From NCBI GenBank assembly GCA_944325835.1, contig CALVBO010000001.1, forward strand, positions 186,001 to 250,000: 64,000 bases of DNA, read 5' to 3'. Source of the DNA: Candidatus Gastranaerophilales bacterium (lineage in GTDB: Bacteria; Cyanobacteriota; Vampirovibrionia; Gastranaerophilales; Gastranaerophilaceae). The position numbers and the translations under genes are program-made. Below, in pieces: positions 32,982 to 41,335 of this stretch; position 1 is the stretch's first letter, and each line of letters opens with the position of its first letter. The notes below the pieces were generated by a model. The model was not told where the DNA came from and made no database searches. It worked only from the letters and a program-made list of their open reading frames with translations.

Positions 32982-33007
32982 TTCTATCCTTTCTATGTGC
33001 TATAATT

Positions 33008-33035
33008 AAACGGGAATAATGATATTCCCGTTTTT
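33008..33035 (+). terminator. Terminator of rubrerythrin gene
   Basis: ACGGGAATA pairs with TATTCCCGT around an ATGA loop, followed by five T residues. A TGC-TATAAT extended -10 box (32998-33006) just before it may start the SDR gene's transcript, which would then begin inside this hairpin. Confidence 0.65.
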
Positions 33036-33061
33036 CTTATATCTTACAGGCAAGGAGCAAT

Positions 33062-33874
33062 ATGGAAAAAACTTATGTAATAACCGGAGCCACCTCCGGA
33101 ATAGGCAAAGCGCTAACAGAATACTTTATATCAAAAGGGAATAAAGTTTTCGCCGGCTACAGGGATGAAAATAAATTGAAACTGCTTCCAGAGGGCGTAA
33201 TACCTTTTTATATAGACTCAATGAAATCTGACTCAATTGAAGCAGCGGCAAAATTTATCCAATCGACAACGGACAGCATAGATACGCTGATTAATGTTTC
33301 TGGCTGCGTTGTTGCAGGTGCAATGGAGCATCTGCCGGTGAGTGAGCTGCGCAGGCAATTTGAAGTTAATGTATTTGCACATATTGACTTATCACAAAGG
33401 CTTTTGCCTCTTCTTGAAGGCGGGCGGATTATCAATATAAGTTCTATGTCGAGCTTCGGAATTTTTCCTTTCATCGCGCCGTATTCGGCTTCAAAACGAG
33501 CACTGGATATTATGTTCAACGCAATGGGACTTGAGATGAAGAAAAATATTAAAATTATTTCAATTAAACCCGGCGTAATTGCAACACCTCTATGGGAAAA
33601 ATCAATTAAAGAAAATGAAAACGGGTTTTCAACCTGTCAGGATTATCAAAACGAAATAAACTTTATGGTAAAAAATGCCAGAACAAACGGGATAAAAGGG
33701 CTTCCGGCAGAAAAAGTTGTACAAATTGTTGTCAAAGCAGACAGTGCCAGAAACCCACGTCCAAGCTACACCGTAGGATTGGATGCAAAAGCGGCAGAGC
33801 TTATTTCGCATCTGCCGCAAGGGGTTTTGAATAAATTAATAAAATACAAGTTACATCAGCGAACTAACGCTTAA
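33062..33874 (+). CDS. Short-chain dehydrogenase/reductase
   Basis: A 270-residue Rossmann-fold oxidoreductase. It has the cofactor motif TGATSGIGK (residues 8-16), the structural NVSGC (near residue 78, usually NAG), the catalytic Ser in INISSMSS and the YSASKRA motif with Tyr and Lys near residue 142. The KPGVIATPLW segment closes the active site. Substrate cannot be predicted; relatives include keto-steroid and keto-lipid reductases. It is convergent with the prepilin gene, overlapping by 11 bases. Confidence 0.85.
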   Translation: MEKTYVITGATSGIGKALTEYFISKGNKVFAGYRDENKLKLLPEGVIPFYIDSMKSDSIEAAAKFIQSTTDSIDTLINVSGCVVAGAMEHLPVSELRRQFEVNVFAHIDLSQRLLPLLEGGRIINISSMSSFGIFPFIAPYSASKRALDIMFNAMGLEMKKNIKIISIKPGVIATPLWEKSIKENENGFSTCQDYQNEINFMVKNARTNGIKGLPAEKVVQIVVKADSARNPRPSYTVGLDAKAAELISHLPQGVLNKLIKYKLHQRTNA

Positions 33875-35045
33875 CGCATCTGATAGAAACATCTACGTCC
33901 CCCCATTCCATGTGGTAGCAGCCAATAGTCGGAACATGCAGATACCACATATTAGATGCATTTGAAGTAAAGGAGCTTGAAACATATCTTGGAGCAGTAA
34001 GGTTTCCGACAATATTTTTGTTTATAACAAGTGCTGCTAAATCCTCTTTTGTCGGTAAACGGTATTCAGCATCCAGATTTTTACAAACTCCGGACACAGA
34101 AATTGAAGCCGAACTTCCAGATGCAGCATCCTGAGGTGAAGGTTGGGGTGATACTACAAGACTGTCAGTCGGATAAAAGACCGTTATTACACCAACATCC
34201 TTACCAAAAGTATTGGGCCCCTTGGTTCCGTTCAGGTCATAGACAAAATTGGCACACATTTTATTCTGCATCAAAATCATATTTGATTCATCCATGGATG
34301 AAGTACAAACCGGATTGTAAAATACAGCAACACTTTCACCGTTCGCTGTTTCAAAAGCCGCAGCTTTGGTATCCAGTTTATCAAACTGTATAGTGGAATA
34401 GCTACTTCCTGCGGCTGCAAGGTGAGTAAATGATATATTATTTTCGTTTAACTCCGACATTTTCGCCGGAAATGATATTGCAGTACCCGATAGCGGTATT
34501 ACTTTTTCTGGAATACCACAATCAGCCAGATGCTCATTGTCACAAATATTATTTATCTTTAAAACTTTAGAAAGTCCCGCCGTCACAAATGTTTCTGCGA
34601 CATTATCCTCTGTGATTGATTGAGAGCCGCTGCTGCCAATAGTGCCTTCCAGTGTACCAAAACCATTTAAAGAAGGCATAAGAGCAACGGCCTGTGAAAA
34701 TCTTGCATAAAGAGCTTTTCTTTGCGTATTCCATGTGCGCTCGTTAATGTTTCCCGTCAAGCTTGGCAGCGTTATCGCCGCGACTACGCCGATTATCGTG
34801 AGGGATAATAAGATTTCGGCCATGGTAAAACCTCTTTTGTCATCCTGAACTTGATTCAGGGTCTGGCCAATGTTGGATACTTGCTCGTAACGTGGGACAG
34901 ATTCCGAAACAAGTTCGGAATGACAATATGGGTTTTTCGTGGTCCAGTCGCTCGGAACCAAAACTTCTTTCGTTAATTTCTCGCACGGCTTCAATCGTGG
35001 ATGCCACTCAGTGGCCGGCTCAGCGCTCCCCCCCCCCCCCTGCAT
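33864..35045 (-). CDS. Type IV prepilin-like protein with Lcl/DUF1566-like C-terminus, G-tract leader (copy 1)
   Basis: The pilin proper starts near 34823. It has the prepilin motif RG-FTMAEILLSLTIIG with Gly before Phe and Glu at +5, then an N-terminal hydrophobic helix and a long globular region. The C-terminal ~55 residues (AEYRLPTKEDLAAL ... RCVKR) resemble the Lcl/DUF1566 domain. The open frame extends upstream through a palindromic repeat and a 13-G tract. The natural start, an ATG at 35070 after GGATGG, is one base out of frame with the pilin; a 12-G tract would join them. The ATG at 35045 is in frame but lacks a ribosome binding site. Confidence 0.75.
   Translation of the reverse strand: MQGGGGSAEPATEWHPRLKPCEKLTKEVLVPSDWTTKNPYCHSELVSESVPRYEQVSNIGQTLNQVQDDKRGFTMAEILLSLTIIGVVAAITLPSLTGNINERTWNTQRKALYARFSQAVALMPSLNGFGTLEGTIGSSGSQSITEDNVAETFVTAGLSKVLKINNICDNEHLADCGIPEKVIPLSGTAISFPAKMSELNENNISFTHLAAAGSSYSTIQFDKLDTKAAAFETANGESVAVFYNPVCTSSMDESNMILMQNKMCANFVYDLNGTKGPNTFGKDVGVITVFYPTDSLVVSPQPSPQDAASGSSASISVSGVCKNLDAEYRLPTKEDLAALVINKNIVGNLTAPRYVSSSFTSNASNMWYLHVPTIGCYHMEWGDVDVSIRCVKR
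34839..34925. repeat. Composite palindromic repeat inserted in the prepilin 1 leader
   Basis: Two arms, TCATCCTGAACTTGATTCAG (from 34840) and the inverted TCATTCCGAACTTGTTTCGG (ending at 34922), form a large inverted repeat, and each arm is itself palindromic around GAACTTG. The same word family (TCATTCCGAACTTG) occurs as dispersed repeats in many unrelated bacterial genomes. It is read in frame here, coding HSELVSES and LNQVQDDK between the G tract and the pilin cleavage site. Prepilin 2 lacks it. Confidence 0.75.
35003..35022. repeat. Small GCCAC/GTGGC hairpin shared with prepilin 2 leader region
   Basis: GGATGCCACTCAGTGGC forms a 5-bp hairpin. A related GGATGCCGCACAGCGGC lies upstream of prepilin 2 (40090-40106), where one A-T pair is replaced by a G-C pair. 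Confidence 0.45.
35028..35040. repeat. 13-base G tract (minus strand) in prepilin 1 leader
   Basis: Thirteen consecutive C on the plus strand, read as G on the coding strand. It lies ten codons after the ATG at 35070. With 13 G the reading frame from that ATG ends at a TGA two codons beyond the tract; with 12 G it continues into the prepilin. Tracts of this length are prone to slippage. Confidence 0.85.
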
Positions 35046-35103
35046 ACGTAATTACACTTCGGTTTTTCATAATTTTTCCATCCTTTCTTTATAATACTTT
35101 TTC

Positions 35104-35132
35104 ATTATGTAGCATGTTTTTAGTTTAGTCAA
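35104..35132 (-). promoter_or_regulatory. Promoter of prepilin 1
   Basis: On the minus strand TTGACT (35127-35132) and CATAAT (35104-35109) are 17 bases apart, followed by GAAA. The arrangement is the same as in the prepilin 2 promoter. The predicted leader contains AAGAAAGGATGGAAAAA before the ATG at 35070, as in prepilin 2. Confidence 0.7.
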
Positions 35133-35133
35133 G

Positions 35134-35156
35134 AGGGAAGGCGGGTTGCCCCGTCC
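35134..35156 (-). terminator. GNRA-loop hairpin after the REC-GGDEF-REC gene
   Basis: On the minus strand AAGGACGGG-GCAA-CCCGCCTT forms a hairpin with a GCAA tetraloop and a single mismatch, right after the stop codon at 35160. The T tract is poor, so it may act as an RNA-stabilising or weak terminator structure. Confidence 0.5.
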
Positions 35157-35159
35157 TTA

Positions 35160-36455
35160 TTAAGACTCTTTCAAAAGCGTATCAACCCATTTGATAAGTG
35201 TCGACAGTTCATAAGGTTTGGGCAGGTATAAATCAGCCCCGCAATTCAAAATAAGTTCTTTATCATGAAGCACCGACGTCAAAATAATTTTTGAACCGGC
35301 GAATTTCGTATCCGATTTAAGACTTTTGCAGTGTGCAATTCCCTCAAGAGTTTCAACCTCTCCTGCGTCAAGAATTATAAGTGCAGGCGGTTCTTCAAGC
35401 TCCGAGATTTTAGCACAATCCTGCATAACAACAACTTCATAGCCCTGTAAATCCAAAATGGTTTTTAGAAGAATTGTCAGCGCTTCATCTTTTTCACTGA
35501 TTAAAATTCTATTATTTGCTTTAATATCATCTGTGGTTTCACCGGCAATCTTAGGGCGTTCAATCAGATAATTTGATTTTGAAGGCATTTTAGCAAGTTT
35601 ATGTGTTTGCACAAGGGCATTGAACAGCTGCGAGGCATCTTTATGTTTAATAAATTCATTTGTAACAACGCCGATTGTTGTATGAACGAAATTAGAGCGT
35701 CGTCCTGCCTGATTATCACCCTTCATCATCATATAGCCGCGCTTGTTATCTTCAATAGAGTAGAATTTAGATGAAACGGTTTCAAACGCATAAATCAGAT
35801 AATTTGCAACGGCTTCCGCCTTATCTCTGTCAGTGATAACAAGGAATTCATTTTCTCTGATTTCCCCGAAGAAATCCTCATCCTCAATCGTTGATTTTAT
35901 TATTGCCCAATAGGTCTGTATAAGTTTATCAGAAGCCAGTTCCGTATAGTTTTCCTTGTAGTTAAAGAAATTATCTATACTAATTAAAAGAGCAGCCCGC
36001 TGAGCTTTTGCCGAAATCATGCGTTTAAGCGCGCGCATTGAATAGTTGCGGTTTGGCAAGAATCTTTTCAGGTTCAAATTTGATTCGTATTCACGGCGCA
36101 GATGCGCTTTAACACGCATAACAAACTCGTCCGGGTTAACCGGTTCACTTATAAAATCGTCAGCCCCGCTTCTTAATACATCCAGTTTGTCAACGATATC
36201 ATCAGACTTTGAAACTGCAACAATAATAGGACGCGTGTCATAAGTTAAGGCACGAATTTTTTTGCAATAATCCGAAAGATCACTGTCAATACTGTCTGAA
36301 ATCAATATCAAATCCGGTTCGTAATCCTGAATAGTTTTCATTGCAGAAATAAGATTTTTGGTAACAAAACAGTCATTATGCCTGTTTTTCAAAAGTCTTT
36401 TGTATTTTGTTGAAAGTTCTTTTCTTTTATCAATAATCAACGTTACTGTATGCAT
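35160..36455 (-). CDS. REC-degenerate GGDEF-REC regulator
   Basis: A 431-residue three-domain signalling protein. The first receiver (residues 1-115) has a LILISDS acceptor region but ISEPVNP where the switch Lys should be. The middle (~130-305) follows the GGDEF fold, with a RENEF end in place of GGDEF, so cyclase activity is unlikely. The last receiver (~315-431) has LIILDAGEV and the intact LPKPY Lys, but a lone acidic residue where DD is expected. It overlaps the histidine kinase gene by 13 bases, so the kinase is its likely partner. Confidence 0.75.
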   Translation of the reverse strand: MHTVTLIIDKRKELSTKYKRLLKNRHNDCFVTKNLISAMKTIQDYEPDLILISDSIDSDLSDYCKKIRALTYDTRPIIVAVSKSDDIVDKLDVLRSGADDFISEPVNPDEFVMRVKAHLRREYESNLNLKRFLPNRNYSMRALKRMISAKAQRAALLISIDNFFNYKENYTELASDKLIQTYWAIIKSTIEDEDFFGEIRENEFLVITDRDKAEAVANYLIYAFETVSSKFYSIEDNKRGYMMMKGDNQAGRRSNFVHTTIGVVTNEFIKHKDASQLFNALVQTHKLAKMPSKSNYLIERPKIAGETTDDIKANNRILISEKDEALTILLKTILDLQGYEVVVMQDCAKISELEEPPALIILDAGEVETLEGIAHCKSLKSDTKFAGSKIILTSVLHDKELILNCGADLYLPKPYELSTLIKWVDTLLKES

Positions 36456-37162
36456 TTAGAACCCGCCTGCCTTTCAATACTATATACCGGAAAAAGAACT
36501 TCAAAGGTAGTCAAATTGTCTTTTGAAGTTACAAAAATTTTCCCGTTCATTTTATCAACGAGATTTTTCGTAATATAAAGTCCCAGCCCGTTGCCCTGCA
36601 CATGACGTGTAAGCGGGTTGTCGAGCCGTGAGAACTTTTCAAAAATTTTTTTATAATCTTTCTCGTCAATGCCGTAGCCGTTATCTGAAACTTTTATAGA
36701 AACAAAATCACCTTTTATCGTTAAATCAATGTTAATCGTAGTATCTTCAAATGAATATTTTGCAGAATTTTCGATTAAATTTGTCATTACCTGCTGGAAT
36801 TTATCCTCGTCGACAAGTATTGAAGGCAAATTTTTAGACTGTCTTACAAAGAATTGTCTGCTTTTATACTGATTGTTTACGATTGCGACAACAGTATCAA
36901 TAATCGGCCGCGGCCGGACTTCTTTTAAAAGAAATTTTTCATGGCAGGCCTGCAGTTTAGTAACGGCAAGCATGTTTTCAACAAGGTGAATTAAGCGGTT
37001 AGATTGTTCCTCAATGATTTTCAGAAATTTTTTCTTGCTGTCATCGTCAAGCTTATCCCATGAATTAAGCATGGTTTGAGAAAACCCCCTGATAGAAGTC
37101 AGAGGGGTTCTAAGCTCATGGCTTACTGTTGAAATAAAATCTTCTTGAAAATTCTCACTCAT
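36443..37162 (-). CDS. Small soluble histidine kinase
   Basis: A 239-residue kinase with almost nothing before the HisKA domain; the phospho-His is residue 15 in STVSHELRTPLTSI. The ATPase domain has the N box (MTNLIENSAKYSF), G1 (VSDNGYGIDEKDY), the F box (FEKFSRLDN) and G2 (GNGLGLYITKNL). There is no sensor domain or membrane segment, so it must receive its signal from another protein. Its stop overlaps the REC-GGDEF-REC gene. Confidence 0.85.
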   Translation of the reverse strand: MSENFQEDFISTVSHELRTPLTSIRGFSQTMLNSWDKLDDDSKKKFLKIIEEQSNRLIHLVENMLAVTKLQACHEKFLLKEVRPRPIIDTVVAIVNNQYKSRQFFVRQSKNLPSILVDEDKFQQVMTNLIENSAKYSFEDTTINIDLTIKGDFVSIKVSDNGYGIDEKDYKKIFEKFSRLDNPLTRHVQGNGLGLYITKNLVDKMNGKIFVTSKDNLTTFEVLFPVYSIERQAGSKCIQ

Positions 37163-37229
37163 AAGCCAATTATAACAAATTTAACACTAAAAGTAAACGC
37201 ACATTATATGTCAAAAATTTTATTCATGC

Positions 37230-37235
37230 TATATT
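37230..37235 (+). promoter_or_regulatory. Extended -10 box upstream of proS
   Basis: TGC followed directly by TATATT, 37 bases upstream of the proS ATG. No good -35 box is seen, as is usual for extended -10 promoters. Confidence 0.45.
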
Positions 37236-37271
37236 AAATTTATAAAAACAGAAAACTGAGGAACAAACATT

Positions 37272-39008
37272 ATGAAAATGTCAAAATTATTCGTACAAAC
37301 ATTAAGAGAATTTCCATCAGATGCGGAAGTTATTTCACATAAAATGCTTGCACGCGCAGGCTATATCAGAAAACTTACAAGCGGCGTATACAACTTTTTA
37401 CCGCTTATGTGGAGGGTGTTAAAAAAGGTTGAAACAATTGTGCGCGAAGAAATGGACAATGCAGGTGCACAGGAACTTTTAATGCCGTTTGTTCAGCCGC
37501 AGGAACTCTGGCAGGAATCCGGCAGGTGGGATGCTTACGGCAAAGAACTTATGCGTCTAAAAGACCGCCACGACCGTGTTATGTGCCTCGGGCCTACACA
37601 CGAAGAAGTCATAACTTCTATCGCACGCGATATCATAAAATCTTACAAGCAAATGCCGGTTAACTTATATCAAATCCAGTCAAAATTCCGCGATGAGGTT
37701 CGCCCGAGATACGGACTTTTGAGAGGCAGAGAATTTATTATGAAAGACGCCTACAGCTTTGATACAACAGAAGAAGGACTGGATAAAGAATATCAAAATA
37801 TGGCACGCGCTTACACAAGAATTTTCAAACGCTGCGGACTTGATACAAAAATGGTTCAGTCAGATTCAGGCGCAATCGGCGGAAGCGTTTCGCACGAATT
37901 TATGGTAATCACTGACGGTGACGCCGGCGAAAATGATGTTTTCTATTGCAATTCTTGCGATTATTCAGCTAACTCAAACCATGCAGTTTCAAATCTGCCA
38001 AAGGCAAATACCACCGGCAAGTGGGAAAAGGCTGAAATTATCGACACGCCAAATACGCATTCAATAGAGGAATTGTGCGAATTTTTAAATATTGAGCCGA
38101 CCGTAATATTAAAAACTCTTGTCTATATTGCGGACAAAAAGCCTGTTTTAGCGCTAATCCGCGCAGATAGAACCGTTGAAGAAACAAAATTAATGAACGC
38201 CGTCGGCGCTAATGATATCAGAATTGCCGTTGCAGGTGAAATTGAAGAATTAATGCAGCAAAACGGATTTGATGCAGAAAAAGGCTTTATCGGCCCGAAC
38301 GGAATGAAAAACGTAACAATCGTTGCGGATGAAACCGTTCGCGGGATGAAAAATTTTGTTGTCGGAGTAAACCGGAAAGACAAACACATGGCCGGCGCGA
38401 ATTTCGGAGTTGATATTGAAATGCCGGAAATCGTTACAGACATAAGACTTGTTGAAAAGGGAGATTTCTGCCCACAATGCGGTAAGCCTTTATTCGTAAC
38501 AAAAGGGATAGAAGTGGGTAACATCTTCAAACTGGGAACGAAGTATTCTAAACCGATGAATGCGGTTTACGCAGATGTTGACGGTAAAACAAAACCTTAC
38601 ATAATGGGCTGCTACGGTATCGGCATCTCAAGAACCGCTGCTGCTGCAGTTGAGGCGCATAACGATGAACACGGTATCAAATGGCCTATTGCCATTGCAC
38701 CATACCATGCAATAGTAATTCCGGTAAGCGTTAAAGATGAAACTCAGATGAAAGTCGCAGAAGAAATCTACAACAATCTTCTAAAAGCCGGAATTGAAGC
38801 AGTCATTGACGACCGTGATGAAAGACCGGGGGTTAAATTCAAAGATGCAGATTTAATCGGCTTCCCATTTAGAATTACAGTCGGGAAAACGATAGCGGAC
38901 GGTCTTGTAGAATTCAAAACCCGTTCAACCGGCGAAATGGAAAATTTAAAGCCGGAGGCTGCAATCGAAAAAGTTGTAACAGAAGTTCAAAAAGCACTGG
39001 CAAAATAA
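37272..39008 (+). CDS. proS: Prolyl-tRNA synthetase
   Basis: ProS charges tRNA-Pro. The 578-residue protein is the bacterial type with an editing (INS) domain between class II motifs 2 and 3. Motif 1 lies in the LTSGVYNFLPLMWRV region, motif 2 in QIQSKFRDEVRPRYGLLRGREFIMKD (starting near residue 137), and motif 3 in MGCYGIGISRTAAA near 440. The editing domain (~230-390) has the typical KTLVYIADKKPVLALIRADRTV run, including the Lys. The anticodon-binding domain closes the protein. GAGG lies upstream of the ATG and a strong terminator follows. Confidence 0.96.
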   Translation: MKMSKLFVQTLREFPSDAEVISHKMLARAGYIRKLTSGVYNFLPLMWRVLKKVETIVREEMDNAGAQELLMPFVQPQELWQESGRWDAYGKELMRLKDRHDRVMCLGPTHEEVITSIARDIIKSYKQMPVNLYQIQSKFRDEVRPRYGLLRGREFIMKDAYSFDTTEEGLDKEYQNMARAYTRIFKRCGLDTKMVQSDSGAIGGSVSHEFMVITDGDAGENDVFYCNSCDYSANSNHAVSNLPKANTTGKWEKAEIIDTPNTHSIEELCEFLNIEPTVILKTLVYIADKKPVLALIRADRTVEETKLMNAVGANDIRIAVAGEIEELMQQNGFDAEKGFIGPNGMKNVTIVADETVRGMKNFVVGVNRKDKHMAGANFGVDIEMPEIVTDIRLVEKGDFCPQCGKPLFVTKGIEVGNIFKLGTKYSKPMNAVYADVDGKTKPYIMGCYGIGISRTAAAAVEAHNDEHGIKWPIAIAPYHAIVIPVSVKDETQMKVAEEIYNNLLKAGIEAVIDDRDERPGVKFKDADLIGFPFRITVGKTIADGLVEFKTRSTGEMENLKPEAAIEKVVTEVQKALAK

Positions 39009-39010
39009 AC

Positions 39011-39038
39011 AAAAGCCCCGATTCCTTCGGGGCTTTTT
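39011..39038. terminator. Bidirectional terminator
   Basis: AAAAGCCCCGA pairs with TCGGGGCTTTT around a six-base loop, with A and T runs at the two ends. It serves proS and the convergent prepilin 2. Confidence 0.85.
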
Positions 39039-39040
39039 TA

Positions 39041-39982
39041 TTACCGTTTTACGCAGCGTACAGGATTATTAGGCCAATGGGGATCATGTCGCATTAAACC
39101 TGTTGTAAAACTTGTATACCATGCTTCATCAATTGACGACGACAGCGAAGATGACCAGTATCTTACAGCATTCATATTGCCAATAATATTCTTATTAAAG
39201 AATAACGAAGCCAATTCTTCTTTTGTAGGCATCCGGTATTCAGCATCCTGATTTTTACAAACCCCGCTTATTGCATCAGGTGTTACAGCGTCAGAAGCAT
39301 CCTGCGTATGCGGAATAGGTGCAACCACAAGACTGTCAGTCGGATAAAGCACCGAAATCACACCAATATCCTTACCAAATGTATTCGGGCCTTTTCGTCC
39401 ATTAAGGTCATATACAAAATTTGCACACATTTTTTGCTGAGCATAAACATCATTTGCTTCTGCAAGCAGTGTTGTACATCTTGGATTATAATAAACCGCA
39501 ATGCTTTCCCCGTTTGCGGTTTCGAAACCGGCAGCTTTTGAGTTAATTTGGGAATAAGACCATGTGGTAACCCCGCCGGACGGAACATCCGTTAAATAGA
39601 CACTGGTATTTTGCGGATTCAGTTCTGCCAAATCCTGCGGGAAATCAATTTGTGTTCCGGCAAAAGGTGTAATTTTGTCCGGAAGTCCGCAATCCGGCAG
39701 GTGCTCGCTGTCACAAATATTATTAATTTTAAGGACTTTAGCAAGACCGTTTGTTACAAATGTTTCTGCGGCCGTATCTTCAATTACGGTTCCTGACGAA
39801 TCCTCTGTAAGAGTTCCATAGCCGTTCAACGCCGGCATCAGGGCGATTGCCTGACTCATTCTGGCATAGAGGGCTTTTCGCTGCGTGTTCCATGTTCGCT
39901 CGTTTATGTTACCCGTTAAACTTGGTAACGTTATCGCGGCGACTACACCAATAATTGTTAGAGAAAGCAGAATTTCGGCCAT
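39041..39982 (-). CDS. Type IV prepilin-like protein with Lcl/DUF1566-like C-terminus, G-tract leader (copy 2)
   Basis: A paralogue of the prepilin at 33864. The conserved part starts at the TTGFTMAEILLSLTIIG-type motif (Gly before Phe, Glu at +5) and is near-identical over the first ~45 residues. The C-terminus (AEYRMPTKEELASL ... WYTSF ... VRCVKR) again resembles Lcl/DUF1566. The natural start is the ATG at 40049, which has the same GGATGG ribosome binding site as copy 1, then a 13-G tract. That ATG is one base out of frame; with 12 G it would give the leader MNNSRKVLSFTGGGGSFLTG joined to FTMAE. With 13 G, only the internal ATG at 39982 is in frame, and it removes the leader. Confidence 0.8.
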   Translation of the reverse strand: MAEILLSLTIIGVVAAITLPSLTGNINERTWNTQRKALYARMSQAIALMPALNGYGTLTEDSSGTVIEDTAAETFVTNGLAKVLKINNICDSEHLPDCGLPDKITPFAGTQIDFPQDLAELNPQNTSVYLTDVPSGGVTTWSYSQINSKAAGFETANGESIAVYYNPRCTTLLAEANDVYAQQKMCANFVYDLNGRKGPNTFGKDIGVISVLYPTDSLVVAPIPHTQDASDAVTPDAISGVCKNQDAEYRMPTKEELASLFFNKNIIGNMNAVRYWSSSLSSSIDEAWYTSFTTGLMRHDPHWPNNPVRCVKR

Positions 39983-40003
39983 AGTAAAGCCGGTTAAGAA
40001 ACT

Positions 40004-40016
40004 CCCCCCCCCCCCC
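40004..40016. repeat. 13-base G tract (minus strand) in prepilin 2 leader
   Basis: Thirteen consecutive C on the plus strand, 11 codons after the ATG at 40049. The length equals the tract of prepilin 1, and the frame defect is the same (+1). Confidence 0.85.
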
Positions 40017-40089
40017 TGTAAAAGATAATACTTTTCTTGAATTGTTCATTTTTCCATCCTTTCTTAGCGTTTTGCCATTGTCTAATTAT

Positions 40090-40106
40090 GGATGCCGCAC
40101 AGCGGC
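40090..40106. repeat. GCCGC/GCGGC hairpin at the 5' end of the prepilin 2 transcript
   Basis: GGATGCCGCACAGCGGC forms a 5-bp hairpin, placed by the predicted promoter at the extreme 5' end of the mRNA. Its relative near prepilin 1 (35003-35022) lies inside the leader instead. Confidence 0.45.
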
Positions 40107-40114
40107 ACTCTTTC

Positions 40115-40143
40115 ATTATTTACGAAATTTTTAGACATGTCAA
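40115..40143 (-). promoter_or_regulatory. Promoter of prepilin 2
   Basis: On the minus strand a perfect TTGACA (40138-40143) is followed after 17 bases by AATAAT (40115-40120) and GAAA. It matches the layout of the prepilin 1 promoter. Confidence 0.75.
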
Positions 40144-40145
40144 GA

Positions 40146-40171
40146 GAATAGGCGGAATTATCCGCCTATTC
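40146..40171 (-). terminator. Hairpin over the dapL stop codon
   Basis: A perfect 11-bp stem, GAATAGGCGGA with TCCGCCTATTC, around a four-base loop, overlapping the dapL stop codon. It has only a short T-rich tail and lies right before the prepilin 2 promoter. Confidence 0.6.
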
Positions 40172-41335
40172 ATATCTTATTCCCGCATCCTTCATCCGTT
40201 GAATACATTTTTTAATTGTATCAACATCTTTTGTGAGGGCTACGCGGAAGTACCCTTCCCCGTATTTACCATAACCATTTCCCGGCGGAACGACAATATT
40301 AGCTTTTTCAAGCATCAATGTGACAAATTCTTCGCTTGTCATCCCTTTCGGAACCGGAAGCCATAAATAGAATGTTGCCTTAGAAGGTTTAATATCCCAA
40401 CCGAGTTCGCGCAGTCCTTCTTCCGCGACATCACGTCTTTCCTGATACATTTTATTCAATTTATCAATATAAGACTTGTCAACATTAAACGCAGCAATTG
40501 CGGCTTCTTGAATAGCTTTAAACGTACCGCTGTCGATGTTATTTTTGATTGTGCCCAGAGCCTTTACAGCATCTTTATTACCGCAAACCCAGCCGACACG
40601 CCAGCCTGTCATATTGTAAGATTTTGAATGCGAATAAAATTCCAGCGCAACATCTTTACCGCCTTCGACTTGCAGGACAGACGGTGCAACATATCCGTCA
40701 TAAGTCATTTCGCAATAAGCCTGATCTGAACACAGCAGAATGTCATATTTTTTACAAAAATCAACGGCTTTTTTAAGAAATTCCAAATCACAAACAGCAC
40801 CGGTCGGGTTGTTCGGATAATTTAAGAACATAAGTTTTGATTTTTTCGCAACATCTTCAGGAATTTTATCAAAGTCAGGCAGGTAACCGTTTTCTTCCAG
40901 AAGCGGCATAGAAAAAGGAGTTCCGCCAGCAAAAATTGTTGCGTTTTTATAAACCGGATACCCCGGGTCAGGAATCAGTGTATAATCACCTTTATCAACA
41001 AATGCAAAGAATACGTGTGCAATTGCCTCTTTTGAGCCGATATTTGCAAGCATTTCGGTATCAGCATCCAGTTCAACGTTAAAACGTCTTTTCATCCAAT
41101 CGCACGCAGCCTTCCTAAAAGCCGGTGTTCCGTTATAAGGCGGATAATCATGGTTTGCAGGATTATCAATAGCTTTGTGCATAGCTTCCACAACAGGCGG
41201 AAGCGTCGGGGTGTCAGGATCACCTATCCCAAGACTTATAACATCTGCGCCCTTAGCTTTTGCCTCTGCAATCTTTCTGTCAATCTCGGCGAAAAGGTAC
41301 GGCGGAATTTTTTCTAATCTTTCAGATACTTTCAT
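40166..41335 (-). CDS. dapL: LL-diaminopimelate aminotransferase
   Basis: DapL makes LL-diaminopimelate from tetrahydrodipicolinate in one step for lysine and peptidoglycan. The 389-residue PLP enzyme has ISLGIGDPDTPT near residue 36, the cofactor region MFLNYPNNPTGA near 175, and the Schiff-base Lys in SHSKSYNMTGWRVGW near residue 236. DapL is typical of cyanobacteria, plants and chlamydiae. Other class I/II aminotransferases are close relatives, so the exact substrate is inferred from overall similarity and taxonomy. Confidence 0.85.
   Translation of the reverse strand: MKVSERLEKIPPYLFAEIDRKIAEAKAKGADVISLGIGDPDTPTLPPVVEAMHKAIDNPANHDYPPYNGTPAFRKAACDWMKRRFNVELDADTEMLANIGSKEAIAHVFFAFVDKGDYTLIPDPGYPVYKNATIFAGGTPFSMPLLEENGYLPDFDKIPEDVAKKSKLMFLNYPNNPTGAVCDLEFLKKAVDFCKKYDILLCSDQAYCEMTYDGYVAPSVLQVEGGKDVALEFYSHSKSYNMTGWRVGWVCGNKDAVKALGTIKNNIDSGTFKAIQEAAIAAFNVDKSYIDKLNKMYQERRDVAEEGLRELGWDIKPSKATFYLWLPVPKGMTSEEFVTLMLEKANIVVPPGNGYGKYGEGYFRVALTKDVDTIKKCIQRMKDAGIRYE

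Follow-up and report, generated by a model that had tools for sequence, protein, structure and literature searches.

Poly-G runs ahead of a large prepilin family in a Gastranaerophilales genome: probable slipped-strand phase variation

The 64,000-nucleotide stretch of DNA analyzed here (the window) contains two paralogous prepilin genes, each with a run of 13 G shortly after its start codon, and the genome as a whole holds ∼80 loci of the same plan. We consider it very probable that these runs subject a very large pilin repertoire to slipped-strand phase variation, with most of the repertoire OFF in the assembly; the switching itself we infer from assembled sequence, all genomes compared being metagenome assemblies. 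Slipped-strand mispairing at replication would add a G to the run or remove one, only lengths divisible by three (12 G in the case of the first gene, pilin 1) would let a ribosome starting at ATG 35070 reach G|FTMAE, and prepilin peptidase would then take off the whole leader, so that the mature pilin would be the same for any leader. The runs would be highly mutable, expression reversible, and the pilins, relieved of their leaders, displayed at the surface. With ∼80 similar but separate switches, each placed ahead of a pilin that would join an invariant assembly helix to a variable, lectin-like end, each cell would show a changing subset.

Frame logic of the two prepilin loci in the window

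Read along the minus strand, pilin 1 consists of a Shine-Dalgarno sequence (AAAGGATGG, 35078-35086), a start codon (35068-35070), a leader start ending in TATGCA, the 13-G run that is the proposed switch (35028-35040), and AGCGCTGAGCC. The leader cassette that stretches from the run to the cleavage site (34830-35027, minus strand) is repeat-derived and open in the pilin frame, and it is followed by the mature pilin, from FTMAEILLSL to RCVKR plus stop (33864-34829, minus strand), which scores above cut-off against N_methyl PF07963 and TIGR02532. The initial annotation held that 13 G put the natural start out of frame and that one G fewer would open the frame into GFTMAEILLSL, and both statements are borne out by translating the locus with 11-14 G. 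With 13 G, ATG 35070 yields MKNRSVITYAGGGGER and is closed by the TGA at 35020-35022 (minus strand); with 12 G it yields MKNRSVITYAGGGG...DDKRG|FTMAEILLSL and stays open; with 11 or 14 G it again meets a stop (i.e., the gene is ON at 12 G and OFF at 13 G). The ribosome binding site ascribed to ATG 35070 is indeed present, as the AAAGGATGG named above, and AAGGAT followed by ATG recurs ahead of the runs throughout the pilin family. The promoter described upstream exists as a consensus match (TTGACT-17-CATAAT, 35104-35132, minus strand, 10/12 in a consensus scan, which is no proof of function), and the distance of 27 bases given for it fits a transcription start, the -10 hexamer itself ending 33 nt before the ATG.

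A second ATG (35043-35045, minus strand) could be the true start, in which case pilin 1 would be ON now with a shorter leader. At 13 G it shares the frame of the pilin and opens a 393-aa ORF, but it has no Shine-Dalgarno sequence, and across the genome an in-frame ATG near the run is found in only 9 of the 38 loci whose run is one G beyond an ON length (ON+1), so that alternative starts cannot account for the family. We therefore regard ATG 35045 as very unlikely to be the start and ATG 35070, switched by the run, as the better reading.

The second 13-G run (40004-40016, minus strand) leads a paralogue, pilin 2, in the same manner, with a start codon at 40047-40049 (minus strand) that is likewise ON at 12 G and OFF at 13 G, and a mature pilin plus stop at 39041-39988 (minus strand) that, by profile and structure model, ends in an Lcl_C-like (C-type-lectin-like) domain. 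A chance origin of the two runs is ruled out: the window holds 10 G9 matches against 0.04 expected, all of them within these two runs, and the longest other runs, read on the G strand, are 5 G and 6 C.

Some features around pilin 1 are recorded here as observations. Its leader (34830-35027) contains a partly palindromic repeat, TGTCATTCC...CAGGATGACA, read as CHSELVSES...TLNQVQDDK, and variants of this repeat recur in many leaders of the pilin family, with the frame unchanged every time. Immediately upstream of pilin 1, and sharing its strand, are a response-regulator-like and a histidine-kinase-like gene (35160-37162, read by eye). An Rfam search of 33000-41000 gave no match.

A genome-wide family of run-led prepilins

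The assembly to which the window belongs (1.95 Mb in 44 contigs; Gastranaerophilales, genus of Ca. Gastranaerophilus) carries 95 runs of nine or more G, and the DNA surrounding every one of them was read. Some 80 of the 95, including a number cut by contig ends, share one plan: a Shine-Dalgarno sequence, an ATG, 9-16 codons, a run of mostly 11-15 G, an open leader, and then FTMAEILLSLTIIGVVAAITLPSL. The leaders fall into three types, which are ON at n = 0, 1, or 2 mod 3, respectively; they are 20-249 aa long (median 83) and have the appearance of repeat patchworks, but with the frame maintained. The leader frame is under selection: in the segment separating the run from the cleavage site, 2 stops occur in 4123 codons of the pilin frame, whereas the other two frames have 216 and 225. 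Because the pilin frame is almost free of stops, the leaders must, at least sometimes, be read by ribosomes that start ahead of the run.

Pilins that lack a run provide a control. We read 20 pilins of the assembly with no recorded run, and once 3 at contig edges are left out, 15 of the remaining 17 have an upstream ATG in the pilin's frame, and in several of them the leader is 4-10 aa long (frame calls by reading); of the 53 resolved run-led loci, 10 are in frame (Fisher, 4e-7). The annotation's reading of the pilin 1 run as a slippage switch in a prepilin leader thus remains the best one and is strengthened by the ∼80 loci, the stop-codon test, the run-less controls, and the differences in length between orthologs described below.

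That the majority of copies are out of frame, with a few truncated or bearing stops, might also mean that these genes are dead or serve as silent donors, the run being a relic. One locus (L337, G000:C2:207721-209100) even has its G run broken up (GGGGGCGGGCGGGGGC) in the wrong frame and is possibly a locked-OFF copy. However, the leader frames are stop-free, most pilin ORFs are complete despite being out of frame, and the mature pilins retain their invariant N terminus, all of which makes a family of relics highly improbable.

Run lengths and frame states among relatives

In the close relative G002 (contigs the same as BRZ_KI bin23; ProS 99%), four orthologs could be paired with loci of the window's genome by their flanks, which are 94-100% identical, and in this small sample the runs measure 14 versus 13, 14 versus 13, 13 versus 13, and 12 versus 12 G. 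The ortholog of pilin 1 in L100 has 8 G instead of 13; its flanks are 85-91% identical, and the leader from run to cleavage site is unrelated. The ortholog of pilin 2 likewise carries a different leader. Two further signs of variation are weak, and repeats could also cause them: 21 runs lie <300 bp from contig ends where 1.3 would be expected, and assembly G004 has N gaps inside runs. The loci thus bear the marks of a slippage switch, namely a run far beyond chance, a frame set by its length, and a length that differs between relatives (small sample). Both mutS and mutL are present in the genome, so that loss of mismatch repair is unsupported as an aid to slippage.

Runs of ten or more G number 87-127 per genome, both in the window's own assembly and in five of the six congeners; congener G005 lacks G10 runs altogether and has 18 pilin matches, compared with 101 in the window's genome. 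Counts in other genera of the family range from none to 124, and outside the family such runs are seldom found in the order or the class. Two records, L101 and L165 (titled Fusobacterium sp., NALB_7963_5, CAG:439), have ProS 77-94% identical to that of the window and look like mislabelled Gastranaerophilales.

Over 159 resolved loci from five species, 42 are ON, 103 are at +1, and 14 are at -1 (i.e., most loci are OFF in the assembled consensus). When lengths were shuffled within species, +1 loci numbered ∼69 on average and 86 at most in 10,000 trials, figures that are not strict probabilities, the loci being related by descent. Run length is therefore tied to reading frame, a sign of selection on expression and an argument against an artifact. 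The shuffles also rule out a length equilibrium reached by mutation alone, since they never gave more than 86 ON+1 loci against the 103 observed.

It could be argued that the run lengths reflect mistakes in sequencing or assembly, given that metagenome assemblies are used throughout, that some contig ends by runs carry junk, and that Zag_221 has N gaps in runs. But errors would not track frame, the +1 count is unmatched in any of the shuffles, and the runs recur in independent assemblies; we hold this explanation to be extremely improbable.

The excess of ON+1 differs from what free three-state switching gives and counts against phase variation as the best explanation; two toy mutation-selection models did not reproduce it (103/159). 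Long homopolymers are slippery for polymerases, and the runs might instead be kept at ON+1 so that slipping by RNA polymerase or the ribosome yields a set fraction of full-length pilin from unchanged DNA. Polymerase slippage on A/T runs has been described (PMC1088944), and ON+1 is the commonest state in all three leader types, which need different lengths. Against such programmed slippage stand the 42 ON and 14 -1 loci among the 159, the one species that shows no ON+1 excess (G003), and the differing run lengths of orthologs. The other genera of the order add to this: among 26 run-led prepilins, mostly with 10 G or C and ON at 11, 2 are ON, 8 at +1, and 16 at -1, and the last would need a slip in the opposite direction. 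Programmed slippage is thus quite unlikely, and we keep to slipped-strand phase variation, with the frame-specific ON+1 bias as a testable puzzle. Prepilin leaders in other genera can also have a run of 10-11 C on the coding strand (L105:3336, L114:10584, L135:9041, L145:9034, and L152:5065), with four of these five out of frame.

The pilins and their relation to known systems

Pilin 1 bears the type IV pilin signature of Gly/Ala, a hydrophobic helix, and Glu at position 5 (G|FTMAEILLSL), and over the 159 loci residue -1 is Ala in 117 and Gly in 41. Modeled in its mature form, pilin 2 (mean pLDDT 82) has the long N-terminal helix of a type IV pilin at residues 3-50, with low pLDDT (51-67) in residues 1-30. 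The genome encodes one copy of prepilin peptidase (PF01478, above cut-off). Type IV pilin leaders comprise 6-26 residues (PMC4471445), and here the family departs from the rule: tract-led leaders exceed 26 aa in 51 of 53 cases, with a median of 83 aa and a longest leader of 249 aa. When 58 distinct mature pilins are compared, residues 1-40 are almost the same in all of them, and parts of the C-terminal domain show 18-35% pairwise identity. The best fold match of the C-terminal domain of pilin 2 is the C-terminal domain of the Legionella adhesin Lcl (8q4e, E = 1.4e-4), with C-type lectins next at weak scores, and its Pfam score against PF07603, also the best sequence match, is 31.2, just under the curated cut-off of 34.9; unlike this pilin, Lcl is a collagen-like adhesin and no pilin. 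The variable end may bind or escape something, be it host glycans, antibodies, or phages.

The type of mechanism is already known. In gonococci, the run in pilC is located near the 5' end of the gene. Frameshift phase variation of Neisseria gonorrhoeae pilC (Jonsson et al. 1991, as cited in PMC4471445) resembles the present case in being a frameshift switch on type IV pili, but pilC is a single assembly/adhesin gene, whereas here many pilin subunit genes are each switched singly. The contingency genes of Campylobacter jejuni are similar in having a G run in the 5' coding region, ON/OFF states set by length modulo 3, many loci, and an AT-rich genome; each genome of that species has 12-29 G/C runs (≥7), placed mainly in genes for glycans and flagella (PMC8437040), unlike the 95 G9+ runs found here, ∼80 of them ahead of prepilins. 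In the phase variation of Streptococcus gallolyticus Pil1 (PMC3894217), pilus expression is also altered in a leader region, reportedly by an attenuation-like process, whereas in the present genes leader and pilin form a single fusion. In the openly accessible journal papers searched, we found no description of switching on this scale, of pilin subunits as its target, or of leaders this long, and no report of phase variation in Gastranaerophilales.

What is known of Gastranaerophilales, bacteria of the gut, comes largely from metagenomes. If our reading is true, a gut commensal gives over an appreciable part of its genome, with 101 pilin matches in 1.95 Mb, to a chance-driven lottery of surface states, and pilin states could be compared across hosts and time in metagenome reads that already exist. 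A wider scheme, in which ∼80 separately switched prepilins with a shared assembly helix and hypervariable lectin-like heads, mostly one slip from ON, would together with exchange of leader cassettes and a retroelement acting on at least one pilin produce combinatorial surface variation, is one that we put forward tentatively, as a possibility falling a little short of evenly balanced.

A diversity-generating retroelement lies outside the window on contig C9 (L345:425-2463), with Avd (NF033474, E = 2.3e-12), a template repeat (L345:1066-1203), and a reverse transcriptase. The 3' end of a G15-led pilin (L059:1632-1769) corresponds to this template, with 10 of the 11 mismatches at template adenines. 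Retroelement targets of the DUF1566 type have earlier been mentioned as linked to putative pilins (PMC6642488).

About 12 other runs in the window's genome are found inside other genes or close to them, including one AlgX-like frame above the Pfam cut-off and one weaker. Runs of 11-14 G occur mid-frame in other ORFs at L043:702, L044:702 and 2487, and, on the minus strand, L027:693, L049:693, L055:693, and L066:693; two of these runs are in AlgX-like ORFs, the L027 ORF is one that we take to resemble a DUF115/Maf-type protein, and some of the runs are in frame and some out.
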